DNA of 21,042 bases from a virus. The stretch covers positions 1 through 21,042 of the IMG/VR virus record IMGVR_UViG_3300009512_000107. The stretch is one strand, 5' to 3'. Shown in pieces: positions 2,875-12,018 of the stretch (the stretch's first letter is position 1; the number at the start of each line of letters is the position of its first letter). The notes under the pieces are model-generated. The model did no database searches. It was not told the origin of the DNA and was given only the letters and a program-made list of their open reading frames with translations. The translations under genes and the position numbers were made by a program.

Positions 2875-2880
2875 ACATGT
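2341..2880 (+). other. Extra ~0.5-kb coding segment interrupting the nozzle gene
   Basis: Between the conserved N-terminal block ending near codon 172 of the first ORF and the conserved NFTAESILVIKKPP block near the start of the next ORF lie about 180 codons that I do not recognise as part of the nozzle family. The segment stays open in the first ORF's frame until TAG at 2872. The sequence is Gly/Ser/Thr-rich, as in phage decoration or Ig-like domains. I see no intein motifs, endonuclease motif or conserved group I intron core, so an added domain plus a gene split is the simplest reading. The boundaries are approximate because they depend on remembered family layout, not on an alignment. Confidence 0.55.
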
Positions 2881-2891
2881 CATATATAGAT
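2872..2891 (+). repeat. Gene-junction repeat, copy 2, at the split in the nozzle gene
   Basis: The sequence reads TAG-AC-ATG-T-CATATATAGAT, with two mismatches to 898-917. It contains the stop of the first nozzle ORF, a 2-base spacer and the start of the second nozzle ORF. The match may be a recombination scar, a shared translation-coupling signal or coincidence. The aligned residues YID are also compatible with the nozzle family's own sequence before FTAE, which weakens a purely recombinational explanation. Confidence 0.65.
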
Positions 2892-5800
2892 AATTTTACT
2901 GCAGAGAGTATTTTGGTTATAAAAAAACCACCGGCATCTGCACCTATAATAACAGCTCTTGCTTTGCCAACGCAAAACAATTTTTTAGAGGAGAGGTTTG
3001 TATGCTTTGCTTATAGATATGAATATCAAAATGGAGAGTTTTCGGCAACCTCACAATTTAGTGACCCTGCTTTTACTCCAGAGGCTTATACTTTTAGTTA
3101 TGATAGCTTCCTGAATGAAGGGATGAGTAACTCTAAAAACGGAGTACAAATAACGTACAATACTGGAGGGCCTTTAGTTGTTGCTATAGAGTTGCTCTTC
3201 AAGGAGATGGATGACCCAACTATTAAGGTTATCGAAAGAATAGATAAAGCCAATCAAAATACAGGTAATGATAATGATCTTACCTATGAATTTGGAACTC
3301 AAAAAATATTTACAGTACTTCCTGAGTATGAGATATTGAGATCATACGATAACGTACCTAGAACCGCTCAAGCGCAGACATTGATGGGTAACAGGCTGGT
3401 TTATGGTAACTATATAGAAGGCTATAATCTTACTGATAAACTTGGAGTTCCGGTTGACTTTACATATACAGCGGATTTAATGTCTGAAGATGTTGGATTA
3501 AGTGAAATTGATGTAACTAATTTAAGTGGAAACTACACTATATCTGGAGGGTCTGTAACTGTGCCTGAGTCTGTTGTAGCTATAGACTTAAGTGGAGTAG
3601 CTTTATTGAATGGATCTAGGATAAATGTTACTATTCAGTTTTTACATTCTTCTTTTCAAGGGCAAGCTCCTTTGCCTTCTGAGACAACGGTGTCTAGTAT
3701 TTTTACAATTGATTACGTTTTAAATGGAAATTTTGATAGCGTTCATGCCTTAGCAAATGATTCAGCTTTTGTGGCTTTTATAGGAACGGCTGCTAATATT
3801 CAGCCGATGGCAACTGCATGCAACGGATTGACGGTAACTGACATATTCAATTGCTCTATACCTAGCCAGCTGACAACGGCTTCAGGGACTGTAACTAAAA
3901 TTGAAAGTGGAATATCTGGAGTGGGACAGCCTATTGAAATAATAAGCACTTCAGGTAGTGACGTTATACAGCTTCAGTTACCTGCAGTGGTTTTTGTTGA
4001 CGACATAAATACACCTACTCAGACTGTTTATGAGTTTTATCAAGTTAACGCTTCTGAGGGTAATTATCAGGAAATTTCTAATAACTATAGCCTACACAGC
4101 AATAGAGGTTATGAGCTTGGTATAGTATACATGGATGAATTTAACAGGTCTACTACCACTCAGGTTAGTCCAAGTAATACAATTCATGTTCCCTGTGGGA
4201 AATCTTCCTCTGTAAATACAATACAAGCTACTATTCCTGGAGGCCCAGGACCTGCTTCGACTGCTATTACAGCTCCTCAGCTTGCGCCATCATGGGCGAC
4301 TAGGTATAAGTTTGTTATTAAGCCAGATAGAACAACATACGAGACAATATATACGAGTACATATTTTGACGATCCGGATAGTAACGCTACATTTTTCTTT
4401 TTAGAAGGAGAGAATGCTAGTAAGGTTGAGGCTGGAGATAGATTAATAGTAAAGACAGATAGTAATGGTGTAATGCCTTCGTGCGTATACGCCACTGTGT
4501 TAGAAAAAGAAGTGAAAGCTCAAGATTTTATAAAGATTCTTGATCCTTTGAATCCTGCGGCAGGTGATGATCCCGCTGGAACAATATTAGTAGCGGCAGG
4601 AACATATATGAAAATCAATGCTAATAACTTTGCTATAGCTAGTAACGATGATCCAGGGGGTAATTTTGTTGATCCCGGTAATTTTACAGATGCTTCAACG
4701 AGAAATGGCGAAGCTGCTTTTGTTGCTTATCCTGTGAATGTCATTAACCCAGGGGGCACAGGAAGTACTAGTTATATTGACTATACAATTCCAGAAGGAA
4801 GCACAACAAGCTTTGATTTTTTTACAAAAAGAAATCAGATGAAAATTGCGGGATCAATAATATATAATGAAAGGAAATATACTCTAGATTTAGATGTAAG
4901 ATCTCGTGCAGATTACAGTAACTTTAAAGAGTTTTGGGATGGAGAAGATTTTAACCTACTAATAGATAATGGTGAGTCTACTATAGGTGGTAATGATGAT
5001 GCGTGGGATATATCATACAACAGTGTTCTTCAAACGGAGTCTAGAGCACCACTTCAAACAGATATGCCTACGCCAAGAAGTGAAGATATTAATTTTAAGT
5101 TTTTTAGAGATAGCTCCACCAATCAGTTGTTCTTACTATGTTCAGCTAGTATAGAGGCTTTTATTGAGGTTGCAGGATTTAGATTAGATGTTAAGCACTC
5201 TTACATATATGATTTTAGAATTCAAGTAAATAGAGTTCCTGGAGATACAGTTGTATTTGAGACAATACCTGCTGAGGCTTTAGATGATGTGTGGTATGAG
5301 AATGATTTATCTTTTCCTATTGATAATTTAGGTCAGCATACCGGTAATGTTCAGAATCAGCTTATTAATTTTGAGAATGGATCTAGTGGAACGACAACAC
5401 CACAGGATGCTATTATTGACACTGGCTTTTATAACTGTATATCTTTTGGAAATGGAGTGGAGAGCTATAAGATTAGAGATTCAATAAAAGGGAAACCTTT
5501 AAATTTTGGAAATAGAGTAAGCACAACATCTGCTCAATTATATAAAGAATCTGATAGATTTGCAGACTTGACTTATAGCGGCGTGTTTAATGATGAGACT
5601 AATGTAAATAAACTTAATGAGTTTAATTTAGGTCTTTTAAACTATAAGCCTCTTGAGACTTCTTTTGGTCCTGTAGAAAAATTATACGGAAGAAAAGATG
5701 ATATACTCACTTTACAGGAAGATAAGATTTCTTATGTTTTAGTGGGGAAAGACTTACTTAGTGATGCTAGTGGAGGTGGAGTATTGACATCTGTTCCCAC

Positions 5801-7436
5801 TGTTCTTGGTAAGCAAGTTCCTAGAATTGAAGAGTATGGTATAAGCTCAAACCCAGAGAGTTTTTCTTCGTATGGAGCTGATAAATATTTTACTGACTCT
5901 AAGAGGGGTGCTGTAATAAAACTTAGCGGAAGCTCTCTTGGTAATGATCAACTAGAAGTTGTTTCTGAGTATGGCATGCGTGGTTGGTTTAGAGATTTCT
6001 TTGTAGAAACTACAAATAATCAGAAGCTTGGAGGATTTGATCCTTACATGAATGAGTATGTTTTATCTACTAATAGTCAGACTGCGGAAGTTGTAGGTAA
6101 TTGTCTTCAGTGTGGTGTAACTGAGAATGTATTTGTTAATCCATCGGAAGAAACAATATACTGTGTAAATGTAGGTCAAGATATTGGATCAGTAGTTGTA
6201 GACTACGTAATTCCTAATGCTGCTTCTGACGATATTGTAAGTCAAGTAAATACTCCTAGTGCAGGAACAGGATTAGTTGATATTACAAGTGAATCTGGAA
6301 TTGACTTAGTTACTCAAGGAACTAACACAGGTGTTGGATATACCATAACTGCATATTACAATGGTATTGAGTTTGGTACTTCGGGAGTTGTGTTTATGAG
6401 TGGGTCTTTTACTATTCCTAAAACCTCAGTAACTGCTACTAGCGTCACTCTGGTTGTAACGACCACTTCAACAACGGCTGATACGATTCAAATAAATACT
6501 AGCTGTCCTATTCAAGATATAATGACAATCTATAATATAGCTTTAAGTAGTAGTAATGAGGCAACTCAGTCTATCCATAATCAATATTCTTGGATCGACG
6601 GAGCGTTCTCATCTGCAGTTCAATCAAACCAGGTTTTACTTGCTGATTCAAGTATTATACCTATTGTTTCTCAGTATGCAGCCGGATCAGGGCCTATAGG
6701 TTCTTTCGCTCCATCTGCAGGCGCTACGGTTAGTATTATAAGTAACAAATTACAGGATGATAACTTCTTATTTAGCACTACTTCTAATAAGCTTCAGTTT
6801 TTAAGAACTGATATTACTTATGGAAATAACTCTGCGGATATATTAGCTTTAGTGGCAGCAGCTACTACCGCTTCTCCTATTGTTACTAACATTAATCAGA
6901 ACTACGCAAACTTCACTATGCCTACTGGAACTGCTGCTCAAGATAAATTATATTTAATATGGGATTACAGAGATTCTACTAGTGCGATACTGAATGTAGA
7001 TAATAATTACGTTGACGCATGTTGCCCTGGTATTCCAATAGGCCCTGTTGTAGGGTGTGGAGTAGCTAATGCTTACGCAGGAGGATCTGTTTTTCCAGAT
7101 GTTTCGAATGTTACGGTAGGAGCAGCCATTGGTAGTGTATCACTTAGCTTTAATATGAGCTCTGCTGCAGGAACTTCTTCTATACCTTCGAAGATTGTCG
7201 TTAAATATGACGGAGTAACTGTTATAGACACTGGTTATAGAGGAGACGTTAGCTATCAAGGGGCATTAAACTCCGCTTTAGCGGCGTTAGGTTTCCCTGC
7301 GGAAAATATAGTTGGCGCTGGAGTAGGAACTGCAACATTCACTAAATCTGCTACCTCACCAACGACTGCTATTGTAGAAGTATATTCTCCTTTAGACAAC
7401 AACGTATGGAGTACAACACTAAACTGTCCAATCTAA
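2877..7436 (+). CDS. Tail nozzle ('stabilization'/muzzle) protein, main C-terminal part
   Basis: The product is 1519 aa. It starts inside the family: NFTAESILVIKKPP (residues 6-19), then EERFVCFAYRYEYQNGEFSA (about 38-57) and LLFKEMDDPTIKVIERIDK (about 106-124). The family's late signature is present: YGADKYFTDSKRGAVIKLSG (about 998-1017), MRGWFRDFF (about 1033) and GGFDPYMNEYVLS (about 1051-1063). It is followed by about 455 residues of Ig-like/beta-rich C-terminal modules with paired Cys (CLQCG, YCVNVG, CPIQD), YLIWDYRDS (about 1358) and an IVVKYDGVTVIDTGYRGD domain near the end. It probably forms the tail nozzle and host-contact surface and must assemble with the N-terminal half encoded just upstream. 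The start ATG is 2 bases after that ORF's stop, in the -1 frame, with no Shine-Dalgarno; translational coupling is the likely mode. It is longer than typical nozzle proteins, mainly in its beta-rich middle and end. Confidence 0.8.
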   Translation: MSYIDNFTAESILVIKKPPASAPIITALALPTQNNFLEERFVCFAYRYEYQNGEFSATSQFSDPAFTPEAYTFSYDSFLNEGMSNSKNGVQITYNTGGPLVVAIELLFKEMDDPTIKVIERIDKANQNTGNDNDLTYEFGTQKIFTVLPEYEILRSYDNVPRTAQAQTLMGNRLVYGNYIEGYNLTDKLGVPVDFTYTADLMSEDVGLSEIDVTNLSGNYTISGGSVTVPESVVAIDLSGVALLNGSRINVTIQFLHSSFQGQAPLPSETTVSSIFTIDYVLNGNFDSVHALANDSAFVAFIGTAANIQPMATACNGLTVTDIFNCSIPSQLTTASGTVTKIESGISGVGQPIEIISTSGSDVIQLQLPAVVFVDDINTPTQTVYEFYQVNASEGNYQEISNNYSLHSNRGYELGIVYMDEFNRSTTTQVSPSNTIHVPCGKSSSVNTIQATIPGGPGPASTAITAPQLAPSWATRYKFVIKPDRTTYETIYTSTYFDDPDSNATFFFLEGENASKVEAGDRLIVKTDSNGVMPSCVYATVLEKEVKAQDFIKILDPLNPAAGDDPAGTILVAAGTYMKINANNFAIASNDDPGGNFVDPGNFTDASTRNGEAAFVAYPVNVINPGGTGSTSYIDYTIPEGSTTSFDFFTKRNQMKIAGSIIYNERKYTLDLDVRSRADYSNFKEFWDGEDFNLLIDNGESTIGGNDDAWDISYNSVLQTESRAPLQTDMPTPRSEDINFKFFRDSSTNQLFLLCSASIEAFIEVAGFRLDVKHSYIYDFRIQVNRVPGDTVVFETIPAEALDDVWYENDLSFPIDNLGQHTGNVQNQLINFENGSSGTTTPQDAIIDTGFYNCISFGNGVESYKIRDSIKGKPLNFGNRVSTTSAQLYKESDRFADLTYSGVFNDETNVNKLNEFNLGLLNYKPLETSFGPVEKLYGRKDDILTLQEDKISYVLVGKDLLSDASGGGVLTSVPTVLGKQVPRIEEYGISSNPESFSSYGADKYFTDSKRGAVIKLSGSSLGNDQLEVVSEYGMRGWFRDFFVETTNNQKLGGFDPYMNEYVLSTNSQTAEVVGNCLQCGVTENVFVNPSEETIYCVNVGQDIGSVVVDYVIPNAASDDIVSQVNTPSAGTGLVDITSESGIDLVTQGTNTGVGYTITAYYNGIEFGTSGVVFMSGSFTIPKTSVTATSVTLVVTTTSTTADTIQINTSCPIQDIMTIYNIALSSSNEATQSIHNQYSWIDGAFSSAVQSNQVLLADSSIIPIVSQYAAGSGPIGSFAPSAGATVSIISNKLQDDNFLFSTTSNKLQFLRTDITYGNNSADILALVAAATTASPIVTNINQNYANFTMPTGTAAQDKLYLIWDYRDSTSAILNVDNNYVDACCPGIPIGPVVGCGVANAYAGGSVFPDVSNVTVGAAIGSVSLSFNMSSAAGTSSIPSKIVVKYDGVTVIDTGYRGDVSYQGALNSALAALGFPAENIVGAGVGTATFTKSATSPTTAIVEVYSPLDNNVWSTTLNCPI

Positions 7437-7446
7437 AAATAAATAA

Positions 7447-8889
7447 ATGGCACAAGGAACTTATTATTTTGATGCAGCTACTTTCGCGAGTGCAACTGCA
7501 GTATTTACAGATTCAGATCTTACTATTTGCGCTGCAGACGGATACTATTCTGATGGCGTAATTTCTCGGCAACTTGTAAACTGCGTGTTGTTAGACGCTG
7601 TAGTATGTCCTAATTGTGGTGGTAGCCCAACGCCTCCAGCTCTTGTATTTACTTGTGCGATTGCTTCGTTATCTATAAATAATGGAACGGTGGGTAATGC
7701 TGTTACAGGAAGTGTTGTTAATGGAACTATTCAGGGAGGGTTTACTCCTTCCACTTATTCCTTGGGAACTAACGCATATACAGCTAGCGTTCTAGCTCCA
7801 GCTCCTTATACTAATGCCGGCGTAACAATCGGACCTTGTTCTGCAAATGCTGTAGGATCCTCTGTTCCTATTGTCCCACAGCCAACTTTGGTTTACTATT
7901 ACTTAAGAGGATGTCAAAACGCCGCTGGAAATGTGCCTGCAAATGGATATAAAAATTTAACGACTGCTCCTGGTAATTCTCAGAGATTCCTTGACGGTAA
8001 TTCAGGTGATTTTTGGACTCATGACTCCAACCAACCTACTGTTTCTTCAACCACTAACACAGTTCCTTCTACAACACAGATTGTAGCTGGGGCGTTTGGT
8101 TGTCCTGACGTTACTAGAAATGGATATGTGCTTCAAAGATGCAGTGATTTGAATAGTAATTTTTTCTTTATCACTAACGATAGTTTTGATAATGCTCAAA
8201 GAGTGGAGAGCGCGGGAGTTTCCTATATTATTAATGGTAGATATGGCGGCGGAGGGCAATCTGAAGTTCCTAATGTTACTGCTGTTTCTCCTTTAGTTAT
8301 TGGATGTCCTGCATTACCTCCTACTCCTGTTCCTTTTATATGTTCTGATGCGGTTCTTACTATATCAGACGGTATTGTTGGTAATCTTGTAGAGGCTCAA
8401 ACTGCTAACGGTACGGTTGCGTCTATTAGCCCTAACACATATCAGGCTGGGACTACAACTTATAACGCTAATATTGAAGTTACGGTTACCTCTGTGGTTA
8501 GAGGGGGTGAAGATGTTGAGGTAAGTAATCCAAATGCACTTGTACCTTGCCAGGCTCAGGGACTTGGAGAAGTTATTACTCCTATTTTAAATATGTCTCC
8601 TAACTCTATAAATTATCCTGGAGGTTATGCTGATAATAGGATTCTTAATATTACTGCAAACGGGCCTTGGGCCTTGACTTTCAGCGGAGGCGGTACGCCC
8701 TCTAAAACTGGACAGTATTTTTCAGTTAGTCAATCTTCAGGAACGGGTAATGCTAGTGTTACATTACTTTATAATGGAGGAGTAAATGGCTGGGCAAATT
8801 CTGGATTTGTTGAATTAAGAGCTGGTAATGCGTTTGGTAGCATTGAAGATACTACCGCATTAACAATTCAAATAGCAGGTCCTGCGTAA
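7447..8889 (+). CDS. Ig-like, Cys-containing tail/receptor-binding protein with BACON-like C-terminal domain
   Basis: The product is 480 aa and beta-rich, with almost no predicted helix. After an N-terminal domain ending in CPNCGGSPTPP come two related modules, at about residues 65-137 and 293-373. They share the pattern F.C..A.L[ST]I[NS][ND]G.VGN.V.....NGT[IV] and end in PC. Between them are two small Cys-starting units (YYYLRGC..., YVLQRCSDL...) of the type repeated in flavobacterial phage tail proteins. The last ~100 residues (about 378-480) have the BACON layout: NGPWALTFSGG, then YFSVSQSSGTGNASVTLLY, N..., then a final strand. BACON domains bind carbohydrate or mucin in Bacteroidetes proteins and also occur in crAssphage tail proteins. 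It is probably an exposed tail appendage that contacts host glycans. The A-rich leader TAAAAATAAATAAATG separates it from the nozzle gene. The BACON call is by pattern only. Confidence 0.65.
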   Translation: MAQGTYYFDAATFASATAVFTDSDLTICAADGYYSDGVISRQLVNCVLLDAVVCPNCGGSPTPPALVFTCAIASLSINNGTVGNAVTGSVVNGTIQGGFTPSTYSLGTNAYTASVLAPAPYTNAGVTIGPCSANAVGSSVPIVPQPTLVYYYLRGCQNAAGNVPANGYKNLTTAPGNSQRFLDGNSGDFWTHDSNQPTVSSTTNTVPSTTQIVAGAFGCPDVTRNGYVLQRCSDLNSNFFFITNDSFDNAQRVESAGVSYIINGRYGGGGQSEVPNVTAVSPLVIGCPALPPTPVPFICSDAVLTISDGIVGNLVEAQTANGTVASISPNTYQAGTTTYNANIEVTVTSVVRGGEDVEVSNPNALVPCQAQGLGEVITPILNMSPNSINYPGGYADNRILNITANGPWALTFSGGGTPSKTGQYFSVSQSSGTGNASVTLLYNGGVNGWANSGFVELRAGNAFGSIEDTTALTIQIAGPA

Positions 8890-8942: not shown

Positions 8943-10172
8943 ATGGATACTATATTTATTCAGATTGCCAGCTATAGAGATCCAGAGCTACTTCCTACCA
9001 TCGAGGATTTGCTTTGTAACGCTAGTAATCCAGCTGCTTTAAAAATATGCATAGCTCATCAGCATAGCAAGGAAGATGCTTGGGATGTTTTAAGTCAATA
9101 CGCTAATGATGATAGGTTTATTATAATAGATATACCTCATGAAGAATCTTTAGGGGCTTGTTGGGCTAGAAATCAAATTCAGCAGCATTACTCTGGAGAG
9201 AAATATACATTACAAATAGACTCGCATCACAGGTTTGTTAAGGGTTGGGATACTAGTTGTGTAGAGATGATTGAATCTCTTCAGTTAAAAGGCTATAAGA
9301 AACCTTTGCTAACGGGGTATATGCCTGCTTATATTCCTAACGAATATCCTTTAGGCAAGGAAGATAAACCGTGTGGAATGTCGTTCGATAAATTTACTTC
9401 AGAGGGTGTTGTTTTTTTTCTACCTTACTATTTAGATGAATCTATAACTGAGCCTGTCCCCGCAAGATTTTATTCTGCTCATTTTGCTTTTACCCTTGGT
9501 TTATTTTGTGAAGAGGTTAAGCACGATCCTTCGTTTTACTTTCATGGAGAAGAAATAACAATAGGTGTTAGAGCTTATACTTGGGGGTATGATTTATTTC
9601 ATCCTCATAAAATGGTTTGCTGGCATGAGTATACTAGAGAAAATAGAACTAAGCATTGGGATGACGATAAGGAGTGGCATTTAAAGAATGATGTTGCTCA
9701 CGCAAGAACTAGACAATTATTAGGAGTTGACGGTGAGGTTTGCTCCCCTTGTAATAAAAATACATTTAAAGGTTATGATGTTGGAGAGGATAGGTCTATT
9801 GCTGACTACGAGATTTATAGTGGTATTAGATTTAAGGATAGATCTTTAACTGAAAATTGTTCTTTAAATAAAGTTCCTCCAGGAAATTCTAATGAAATTT
9901 ATTTTTTAAAATTTAAGGATTCATTTGAAATTCGTAAAGATTTCTTTAAAGATGAGAATTATGATTTTGCTGCTTTTATTTTTGAAAACAAGAATGGAAA
10001 TTCCGTATATCGTGAGGACTTAAGTAGAGATATGATCCGTGACCTGCTGAATGGGTCTGAGGAGAGCGTTAGTGTCGTTAAAGAGTATAATGGATCTACA
10101 CCCTACAAATGGATATTATGGCCTTACAGCTCCTCTAGTGGCTGGGGAGAAAAGATAGAGACTAGAATCTAA
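8943..10172 (+). CDS. GT60/GlcNAc-transferase-type glycosyltransferase (GT-A fold)
   Basis: The product is 409 aa. The N-terminus IFIQIASYRDPELLPTIEDL (residues 4-23), the GACWARNQIQ helix (71-80) and LQIDSHHRF (90-98) match the family of Skp1-type UDP-GlcNAc:(hydroxy)proline GlcNAc-transferases (Pfam GlcNAc, GT60). D93-S-H95 takes the place of the usual DXD metal/nucleotide site, as in that family. GWDTSC (101-106), FHGEEITIGVRAYTWGYDLF (200-219) and CWHEYTR (226-232) are further family blocks for acceptor and catalytic residues. The core of about 270 residues is followed by about 130 residues with an unassigned beta/alpha domain. There is no signal peptide or membrane segment, so it acts in the host cytoplasm. 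It lies in a 53-base/51-base spaced slot between tail genes, unlike the tightly packed neighbours, suggesting a cassette. The substrate is unknown: a tail protein (see the Pro/Thr linker in the next gene) or a host molecule. Confidence 0.82.
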   Translation: MDTIFIQIASYRDPELLPTIEDLLCNASNPAALKICIAHQHSKEDAWDVLSQYANDDRFIIIDIPHEESLGACWARNQIQQHYSGEKYTLQIDSHHRFVKGWDTSCVEMIESLQLKGYKKPLLTGYMPAYIPNEYPLGKEDKPCGMSFDKFTSEGVVFFLPYYLDESITEPVPARFYSAHFAFTLGLFCEEVKHDPSFYFHGEEITIGVRAYTWGYDLFHPHKMVCWHEYTRENRTKHWDDDKEWHLKNDVAHARTRQLLGVDGEVCSPCNKNTFKGYDVGEDRSIADYEIYSGIRFKDRSLTENCSLNKVPPGNSNEIYFLKFKDSFEIRKDFFKDENYDFAAFIFENKNGNSVYREDLSRDMIRDLLNGSEESVSVVKEYNGSTPYKWILWPYSSSSGWGEKIETRI

Positions 10173-10197
10173 CTCTAATACATTGAGAATAAAATCG

Positions 10198-10205
10198 TAA
10201 TTTTG
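10198..10205 (+). promoter_or_regulatory. Candidate -7 box (TAATTTTG) before the linker-containing tail gene
   Basis: TAATTTTG matches TAnnTTTG exactly and lies 18 bases before the ATG at 10224, the same kind of spacing as at 155/172 and 11591/11614. The nearest upstream TTG (10183-10185) is only 12 bases away, shorter than the usual 17-23, so no good -33 element is present. It is a possible internal promoter after the glycosyltransferase gene. Confidence 0.4.
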
Positions 10206-10223
10206 TAATCACAATATTTATAT

Positions 10224-11576
10224 ATGAGTTTATTTGAAAGATGCATAAGCGTAAGACCAGGGGACGAGACCAGACGAACCGGGATTTATAATGGCGGAGG
10301 CAGACAATACGAAATAGCTAATGCATTAACTGTAACTATAAACGGTACAATGGTGGTGGGCACTGGCACTTTAAATGTCAGGTCAGTTATAGAGGTTAGT
10401 TATTCTGAAGGCGAAGGCGAAATTTTAGCTCAAGGAGTTATAGTAAATGCTGATGGATTAGAAGTCATTAATTTTTATGGAAATAATGCTATTCGAGCGG
10501 ATCTCAATAATCCTTCTGCTCAAGGCCAAGGTGAGACATATGTTCAGAGTGGTGTCTTACCAGCAGGAGATTACAAGATATACCTTTTCCCTATAGTTTT
10601 AGAGGGAACAAACATGAACGGAAGAGCAAAATTATGCTTTAGGGGAGAGCTTACGGAAACTCCAGTTCCTACTGTAACTCCAGTTCCTACACCGCTTCCT
10701 ACACCTACACCTGCGCCGACACCTGCGCCGACACCTGCGCCAACTGCAGTTCCTACACCTACACCCATTCCAAAAAATCCTGTACCCGAACCAATAGTCC
10801 CATTAGGGCCTCAGTATACTTTGTCGTATAGTAACGGTGTAAAGGGATGGCCTTCTTTTTATTCTTTTAATCCTGATTATATGATTGGAATGAATAATTA
10901 TTTTTACACTTTTAATCAAGGAAATTTATACAGACATAATACGAATCCTCTTTATAATAACTATTACGGAACTCAATACAGCTCTAGGATTACTACTGTT
11001 ATGAATGAGAACCCTCTTTTTAATAAGATATTTAAAACCATAAGTCTGCATTCAGATAAGTCTTGGGAGACAAGTTTATCAACTGACATTGAGAGCAATG
11101 GGTATATCAGTTCTAATTGGTATAAGAAAAAAGAAGGGGCTTGGTTTGCTGATGTTAAAAGTACAAATCAAATTCCTGCTATACTGGATACTTTTAATTT
11201 ACGATCTGTAAACGGTATAGGTCGCATCACTAGTTATACAGGAGCTGCAGACACAAGGTTCTTTAACTTTACGGTGGATATAGATTCTATTATTAGCGTG
11301 GGAGATTATCTATATTATAACAACTCATCCACAAATACACCAGCTTTGGCGGGTCAAATTACAGCTTTAGTGCAGGGAAGGATTACTGTTGACGCAACGA
11401 TATTAGGGGCTACTGCTCCTGACACTGAGAATGCGTTTATAATTGCCTACAAAAACACACTCGCTGAATCACATGGTTTACTAGGGCACTATTGCTTGAT
11501 TACCATTGAAAACAGTGATGTTACTGCTTCGGAATTATTCGCGATAGAGTCAGATGTAATGAAAAGTAATCCCTAA
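10224..11576 (+). CDS. Tail fibre/hub-type protein with Pro/Thr-rich linker
   Basis: The product is 450 aa in three parts. Residues 1-143 are a beta-sandwich-like domain (ERCISVRPGDETRRTGIYNG at the start; GVLPAGDYKIYLFPI near the end). Residues 144-190 are a linker of 47 residues with 20 Pro and 12 Thr, mostly as PTP, APTP and PVPT steps. Residues about 195-450 resemble the C-terminal module of crAss-like/flavobacterial tail proteins: GWPSFYSFNPDYMIGMNNYF, YTFNQGNLYRHN, NNYYGTQYSSRI, then KKKEGAWFADVKS. The module is probably exposed at the tail tip. The linker resembles O-glycosylated Pro/Thr hinges of eukaryotic and some bacterial proteins, and the neighbouring gene encodes a GlcNAc-type glycosyltransferase. 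A candidate -7 box lies 18 bases upstream. No Cys-rich or enzymatic motif is seen. Its exact place in the virion is inferred. Confidence 0.68.
   Translation: MSLFERCISVRPGDETRRTGIYNGGGRQYEIANALTVTINGTMVVGTGTLNVRSVIEVSYSEGEGEILAQGVIVNADGLEVINFYGNNAIRADLNNPSAQGQGETYVQSGVLPAGDYKIYLFPIVLEGTNMNGRAKLCFRGELTETPVPTVTPVPTPLPTPTPAPTPAPTPAPTAVPTPTPIPKNPVPEPIVPLGPQYTLSYSNGVKGWPSFYSFNPDYMIGMNNYFYTFNQGNLYRHNTNPLYNNYYGTQYSSRITTVMNENPLFNKIFKTISLHSDKSWETSLSTDIESNGYISSNWYKKKEGAWFADVKSTNQIPAILDTFNLRSVNGIGRITSYTGAADTRFFNFTVDIDSIISVGDYLYYNNSSTNTPALAGQITALVQGRITVDATILGATAPDTENAFIIAYKNTLAESHGLLGHYCLITIENSDVTASELFAIESDVMKSNP
10707..10742 (+). repeat. Three tandem 12-bp repeats in the Pro/Thr linker
   Basis: ACACCTGCGCCG occurs at 10707-10718 and 10719-10730, and ACACCTGCGCCA at 10731-10742. 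The unit encodes (A)PTP steps and is much richer in G+C than the surroundings. Its period keeps the frame, so copy-number change would lengthen or shorten the linker without breaking the gene. Confidence 0.9.
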
Positions 11577-11613: not shown

Positions 11614-12018
11614 ATGAAATTGAGTATAAGAAAGTTAAACTCTTCTGATTATGACGATATTTTAGTCAAATGGTGGAAGGATTGGGGATGGGTAGCCCCA
11701 CCAAAAGATTTCTTACCTGAAGATGGTGAGGGTGGATTAATAGTTTTAGACGGAGATACACCTGTTTGCGCAGGATTTATATATATGACGAATTCAAAAG
11801 TTTCGTGGGTTGATTGGATTATTTCTAGCAAGGAATACAAAGGCAATCGTAAAGAAGCTCTTGATATGTTAATAGAGACACTAACCAATACCTGTGAAGC
11901 TAACGGAAGTAAATTCATTTATGCTTTGCTAAAACATAAAGGATTAGCTAATACTTACAAAAGAATGGGATACACAGAAGGAGACGTCTACACACAGGAA
12001 ATGATAAAATCAATATAA
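11614..12018 (+). CDS. GNAT-family N-acetyltransferase
   Basis: The product is 134 aa, typical of a single compact GNAT domain. The sequence fits the small phage GNAT group often found among tail genes: WWKDWGWVAPPKDFLP (about residues 24-39), GGLIVLDGDTPVCAGFIYMT (about 44-63, strands beta2-beta3), WVDWIISSKEYKGNRKEALD (about 68-87) and the C-terminal AN.YKRMGY..GDVYTQEMIK. The segment YKGNRKEALDML replaces the usual Q/R-x-x-G-x-G/A acetyl-CoA pyrophosphate loop before helix alpha3. It is cytoplasmic, with an unknown acceptor; it could acetylate a virion protein, a host protein or a small molecule. A -7 box lies just upstream. The next gene follows after 1 base, so it is in one transcription unit with the ejection proteins. 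Confidence 0.8.
   Translation: MKLSIRKLNSSDYDDILVKWWKDWGWVAPPKDFLPEDGEGGLIVLDGDTPVCAGFIYMTNSKVSWVDWIISSKEYKGNRKEALDMLIETLTNTCEANGSKFIYALLKHKGLANTYKRMGYTEGDVYTQEMIKSI

Follow-up and report, generated by a model that had tools for sequence, protein, structure and literature searches.

A GT60-type glycosyltransferase gene beside a Pro/Thr-linker tail protein in a crAss-like muzzle module: a candidate for phage tail self-glycosylation

A GT60 enzyme transfers alpha-GlcNAc to Thr residues of the mucins of T. cruzi (PMC9472816), an activity that has been measured on the synthetic acceptor peptide KPPTTTTTTTTKPP (PMC3769586), and the same family includes the GlcNAc-transferase that acts on hydroxyproline in Skp1 (PMC6939170). 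Phage-encoded glycosylation of virions is described for mycobacteriophages (Che8 and relatives) by Freeman et al. 2023, as cited in PMC11256854. In the crAss-like phage PhicrAss001 the end of the tail is formed by the muzzle (PMC10172136). Among marine phages, 2OG oxygenases that resemble prolyl hydroxylases are widespread (PMC12774648), and the use of viral prolyl 4-hydroxylases was called cryptic in a 2022 survey of Baltic viruses (PMC9301287). In our literature search we found no account of bacteriophage tail proteins with hydroxylated prolines or glycosylated hydroxyproline, and none tying virion glycosylation or viral prolyl hydroxylases to Pro/Thr tail linkers, although absence from a search is not proof of novelty.

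The transferase gene and its neighbours

The window, by which we mean the whole 21,042-base stretch of DNA analysed here, is a fragment of a viral genome. The features considered were the following.

1825-2874, + strand: muzzle protein, N-terminal part (context; phrog_14478 positions 3-153)
2877-7436, + strand: muzzle protein, main part (context; phrog_14478 positions 159-1374, E 1.8e-176)
7447-8889, + strand: variable structural-type protein lying upstream (context; Pro/Thr (PT) runs in several relatives, not here)
8943-10172, + strand: GT60-type (PF11397) glycosyltransferase, 409 aa, GT-A fold (Pfam, AF2, Foldseek)
9219-9227, + strand: D93-S94-H95, DxH motif, candidate metal/nucleotide-sugar site (invariant in 43 homologues)
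9624-9626, + strand: H228, second candidate metal-ligand His (invariant in 43 homologues)
10224-11576, + strand: tail protein of 450 aa, comprising an N-terminal beta domain, a Pro/Thr linker and a muzzle C-terminal domain
10224-10658, + strand: N-terminal beta-rich domain, residues 1-145, candidate tail-tip head (AF2)
10653-10811, + strand: Pro/Thr linker, residues 144-196, putative O-glycan acceptor (composition, length in relatives)
10812-11573, + strand: muzzle C-terminal-type domain (PF25729); stand-alone homologues of about 268 aa without the enzyme cassette start here

Given that the ORFs at 1825-2874 and 2877-7436 together cover phrog_14478 and that a crAss_MUZ_C domain is also present, the phrog_14478 and PF25729 homologues standing in the order that defines a Crassvirales muzzle module, we took the window to be the part of a crAss-like tail module that encodes the muzzle. 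A break at 2874-2877 divides the muzzle gene between two ORFs, and it falls at the same position in two other loci (L002, L003), while in L033, L037 and L040 the muzzle is a single ORF of about 2100-2200 aa. At 11614-12018 lies a small conserved gene (134 aa) with a weak acetyltransferase match; many relatives, whether or not they carry the cassette, have a homologue of this gene 3' of their muzzle-domain ORF.

The ORF at 8943-10172 scored 232.9 bits (E 9.7e-69) against Pfam PF11397, 'Glycosyltransferase (GlcNAc)', whose cut-off is 21, and matched phrog_24687, 'glycosyltransferase', over its full length. An AF2 model built on 43 homologues, with two rows from the phage collection excluded, had a mean pLDDT of 93.2 and a pTM of 0.89, and its nearest solved folds by Foldseek were ppGalNAc-T2, T4 and T1 (E 4e-11 to 2e-9, TM about 0.5), with GlfT2 and TarS ranking after them. 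The ppGalNAc-transferases are the enzymes that start mucin-type O-glycosylation. The D93-S94-H95 triad, which we take to be equivalent to the DxH motif of GT27, is followed downstream by H228, and the protein thus meets the description of PF11397 and CAZy GT60, a GT-A fold with DxH and a downstream His, metal ligation being inferred. Since searches of PDB sequences with the transferase, as a single sequence or as a profile, found no solved close relative, its donor and acceptor can be inferred only by analogy to the family. Homologues in the 'phages' collection were confined to XacN1, CM1 and RAS14, each of which lacks this locus.

The tail ORF begins 51 bases 3' of the transferase ORF, and the arrangement described in an earlier note on this DNA, a GT60-type transferase next to a tail gene, was thereby confirmed. 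Its label of tail protein is also backed, both by PF25729 (crAss_MUZ_C, residues 244-311, E 6.1e-18) and by homologues of the muzzle domain that bear the annotation 'structural protein' in cultured flavobacterial phages, those of Cellulophaga and Flavobacterium. On recounting, the stated figures for the linker, 20 Pro and 12 Thr among 47 residues, proved exact (residues 144-190, bases 10653-10793); Pro makes up 3% of the remainder, and when the whole protein was shuffled 2000 times there were at most 12 Pro per 47 residues (mean 7.6). In most close GT60 relatives the linker is about 50 residues long, while its sequence drifts. AF2 modelled the N-terminal domain with confidence (pLDDT mostly 81-97 per block), left the linker disordered and modelled the C-terminal part poorly. 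The only Foldseek matches to the tail protein were weak jelly-roll ones (best E 1.4e-3), which support no more than 'beta-rich', and a Pfam search of the N-terminal domain gave no match.

Linkers and enzyme cassettes at the muzzle locus

If the transferase and the linker form a pair, as the earlier note had proposed, they should be found together in related phages, and this check had been set beforehand. With the muzzle C-terminal domain and the transferase as queries we scanned IMG/VR, and clustering of the domains at 95% gave 56 tail-protein clusters. Linker and enzyme cassette were observed together in 22 of these and both were missing from 34, with no mixed cluster, and the check was therefore passed. 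In the cassette class the domain ORF carries an N-terminal extension of 190-380 aa with a Pro/Thr run, and the enzymes occupy the slot ahead of it; the linker lies in the domain ORF itself in 20 of the 22 clusters and in an adjacent split linker ORF in the other two (L031, L033). In the cassette-free class the ORF starts at the domain (about 268 aa), the linker is absent, and no GT60 or prolyl-4-hydroxylase (P4H) homologue was found between the domain ORF and the muzzle gene. Of 547 genes in cassette-free crAss-like loci, only one has a PT run. A thioredoxin-based control scan gave only six usable loci, too few for statistics, and none of the six has a PT-run ORF on the + strand. One relative (L100), its domain 63% identical, has a slot without a transferase and a reduced linker (P 7 in 40); it is possible that this region (L100:8856-10215) records a natural joint loss of transferase and linker, on a contig of only 11 kb. 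In the two split cases, L031:11048-12439 and L033:13565-15304, the break between linker ORF and muzzle-domain ORF falls near the linker/domain boundary and could be a frameshift, an assembly error or real.

The table of 22 and 34 does not represent 56 independent events, given the phylogeny. Linker and enzyme each change state about three times on the tail-domain tree, with two independent pairs on starred (supported) branches, which is too few switches for a corrected test of co-evolution. Three GT60 loci (L033, L037, L040) group on this tree with P4H-bearing loci (SH-aLRT 96), indicating that the enzyme set changed there and the linker stayed.

Where linker loci lack a transferase of the window's type, the slot holds a P4H homologue of 389-438 aa. 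Its N-terminal half matched PF13640 (E 1e-15), and comparison with solved prolyl 4-hydroxylases in the PDB gave E 4e-31, E 9e-18 and E 2e-17 for the B. anthracis, human and Chlamydomonas entries, respectively. A scan with the P4H-homologue family yielded 65 distinct loci, in 63 of which a PT-run protein lies alongside the P4H on one side or the other: a PT-run ORF is immediately upstream in 52 of 60 testable loci, and a PT-run muzzle-domain ORF is downstream in 56 of 58. In L239 and L248 the muzzle-domain protein has no linker, which is found only in the upstream protein. The P4H is usually accompanied by varied transferases, namely PF04488 (GT32-like), the HPAT family (matched weakly, by 5 of 14 members, with a best E of 4.3e-8), O-FucT-like proteins and GT60, the last of 275-318 or 471 aa. 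In four loci (L200, L201, L202 and L204) no transferase separates the P4H homologue from the PT-linker muzzle-domain ORF that directly follows it, and there hydroxylation alone may be sufficient. The C-terminal half of the P4H homologue (L127:1733-2986 and homologues) is conserved as well, with H-x-D and H...R patterns (HVDR ... CEHGR), and may constitute a second domain of 2OG oxygenase type (in L200, PF13661 at E 0.03).

The composition of the linker follows the enzyme. The 19 distinct GT60-only linkers have T 0.26, P 0.40 and PP 0.04, compared with T 0.19, P 0.50 and PP 0.13 in the 46 distinct P4H-type linkers (Mann-Whitney p from 1e-4 to 5e-8, uncorrected for relatedness), which favours hydroxyproline as the acceptor in the P4H cousins. 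A search with phrog_61 (hydroxylase) of 20 long-GT60 records, the window included, gave no match, in agreement with the earlier remark that no prolyl hydroxylase is visible here, and PF13640 was likewise without a match in the long-GT60 crAss-like records searched, which are fragments of up to 58.6 kb. Hydroxyproline O-glycosylation calls for a P4H in the same system, and a homologue is present in the P4H cousins but was not found in the window or in the long-GT60 relatives searched. Hydroxyproline as an acceptor has its counterpart in the cousins, where a P4H homologue fills the same slot, whereas for the window Thr is favoured, on the grounds that the GT60-only relatives lack a hydroxylase in records of up to 58.6 kb and have Thr-richer linkers.

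What the transferase may modify

GT60 genes are also found beside PT-run proteins away from the muzzle locus. They adjoin PTPTPT proteins in unrelated tail modules (e.g. L006, L010-L012, L051, L060-L061, L063, L076, L091), and among 59 GT60 clusters without a muzzle-domain match a PT run was present in 11 of 115 immediate neighbours versus 34 of 959 other genes of the same loci (p 0.006, uncorrected). The transferases of three of the 11 (L018, L022, L032) are close to those of crAss-like phages, and these loci may lie on truncated contigs of that group. On the transferase tree the PT-flanked state requires at least 10 changes on starred branches, that is, repeated origin. In a second lineage, a freshwater tail module sharing the gene L010:2896-3801, GT60 and PT-run proteins are both present in most loci with enough downstream sequence; the flanks of these loci were cut at 10 kb and allow no clean presence/absence contrast. 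At the same time, a PT-run protein is lacking within three genes of GT60 in 44 of the 59 clusters, several of which stand beside other sugar-transferase genes, so that phage GT60 enzymes as a whole are not dedicated to tails. The enzyme/acceptor pairing put forward in the earlier note is thus supported indirectly, by the co-occurrence and by the PT-run proteins beside GT60 in unrelated phages, glycosylation itself not having been observed.

Some observations stand apart from this argument. PF09612 (HtrL_YibB, 'unknown function') is repeatedly found beside phage GT60 (L005, L006, L034, L046, L053, L070), an adjacency that suggests it works with sugar transfer. Bacterial GT60 loci include some with PT-rich neighbours, but high-GC composition yields such runs and these loci were excluded from the counts. 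Two loci binned as Planctomycetaceae and Gammaproteobacteria (L249 and L258, respectively) show the gene order of the crAss-like L033 and L037, with GT60 adjoining PT-run ORFs, and are probably misbinned phage contigs.

Given that at the muzzle locus linkers are found only where sugar-adding or proline-hydroxylating enzymes adjoin, it is probable that these phages add sugar to their own tails. Self-glycosylation of the linker in some form, hydroxyproline included, is in our judgement likely, and we consider it reasonably probable, with less assurance, that the GT60 of the window O-glycosylates Thr in the linker of the phage's own tail; no glycan has been observed, and the activity is inferred. 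In this proposal the enzyme (8943-10172) would act during infection on the neighbouring tail protein (10224-11576). The sugar, probably GlcNAc donated by UDP-GlcNAc, would be placed on hydroxyl groups of the extended Pro/Thr linker, most likely those of Thr, in the manner of a mucin. The linker would join the N-terminal beta-rich head to the muzzle C-terminal-type domain, and the head would be held off the tail tip by an O-glycosylated spacer whose row of O-linked sugars might hold it extended, shield it and make it resistant to proteases. What we observed is the identity of the genes, the layout of the domains, the fold and the co-occurrence; the sugar, Thr as the site, the effect on the tail and any benefit are inferences, as is the activity.

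It is also conceivable, if unlikely, that the transferase has a host target, modifying LPS, capsule or a surface protein and thereby blocking superinfection or altering the receptor, and that its place in the tail module is due to chance or to its travelling with a receptor-binding head domain. The many other phage GT60 genes that adjoin GT25, HtrL_YibB or other transferases and not PT proteins would fit such a role, as would the jumbo phage XacN1, whose GT60 gene lies beside a carbamoyltransferase (RAS14 has the same gene order, unannotated). A host target does not, however, predict that the presence or absence of the linker should track the enzyme, that unrelated enzyme sets should fill the same slot where the linker is kept, that prolyl hydroxylase homologues should be among the alternatives, or that linker composition should follow enzyme type. 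Another possibility is hydroxyproline as the acceptor in the window itself, produced by a hydroxylase encoded by the phage outside the 21-kb fragment or, as in a Skp1-like arrangement, by a host enzyme. The family does include the Skp1 hydroxyproline GlcNAc-transferase (PMC6939170), and related crAss-like loci put P4H homologues beside short or fused GT60; the absence of PF13640 and phrog_61 from the long-GT60 records searched (fragments, host unknown) and the Thr-richer, Pro-poorer linkers of these records nevertheless make it unlikely here.

Least credible, and in our estimation very improbable, is that the Pro/Thr run is a stiff spacer and nothing more, with the enzyme modifying phage DNA or some other molecule. 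It is general knowledge that polyproline-type spacers require no modification and that some phage glycosyltransferases modify DNA, but the window showed no DNA-modification genes, the transferase has polypeptide transferases as its best structural neighbours, and PT-run genes are nearly absent from cassette-free crAss-like loci. 

Returning to self-glycosylation of the linker, the slot of the relatives holds other enzyme sets, including P4H with hydroxyproline-type transferases, and the linker would then be modified by interchangeable chemistries. We lean, though only slightly, towards a general scheme in which aquatic crAss-like phages carry interchangeable cassettes acting on tail-tip Pro/Thr linkers, a lone GT60 modifying Thr and a P4H leading to hydroxyproline glycosylation by GT60 or HPAT-/GT32-like enzymes.

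Relation to known glycosylation systems

Were the scheme of interchangeable cassettes correct, hydroxyproline O-glycosylation would exist in bacteriophages, at least some marine-virus prolyl hydroxylases would have a use and viral prolyl 4-hydroxylases a concrete substrate, and there would be small enzyme/acceptor pairs that laboratory E. coli could be used to test.

The eukaryotic GT60 alpha-GlcNAc-transferases, TcOGNT of T. cruzi and the Skp1 Gnt1 of Dictyostelium and Toxoplasma, have PF11397 in common with the window enzyme, and their acceptors, Thr in mucin-like proteins or hydroxyproline, match the Pro/Thr linker next door. They act on cellular proteins, whereas the window enzyme is phage-encoded, its acceptor a putative virion protein and its activity inferred. 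The Skp1 pathway in particular runs from P4H to GT60 and then to other transferases including GT32, and the cousin cassettes combine P4H with GT60 or with PF04488 (GT32-like); Skp1 is modified at one proline, in contrast to the putative multi-site tail linker of the phages, and the window carries GT60 only. Several relatives pair P4H with HPAT-family transferases and Pro-rich proteins, as in plant extensins and arabinogalactans (P4H and HPAT), but the HPAT matches of the phages are weak and none lies in the window.

Also comparable are the mycobacteriophages, whose transferases decorate the phages' own structural proteins, as is predicted for the window phage. There the sugar is carried on capsid proteins, whereas here the predicted site is a Pro/Thr tail linker, the enzyme is of the GT60 type and P4H variants are found in relatives. 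Virion glycosylation is thus already known, and the Pro/Thr-linker cassettes look like a new variant of it.
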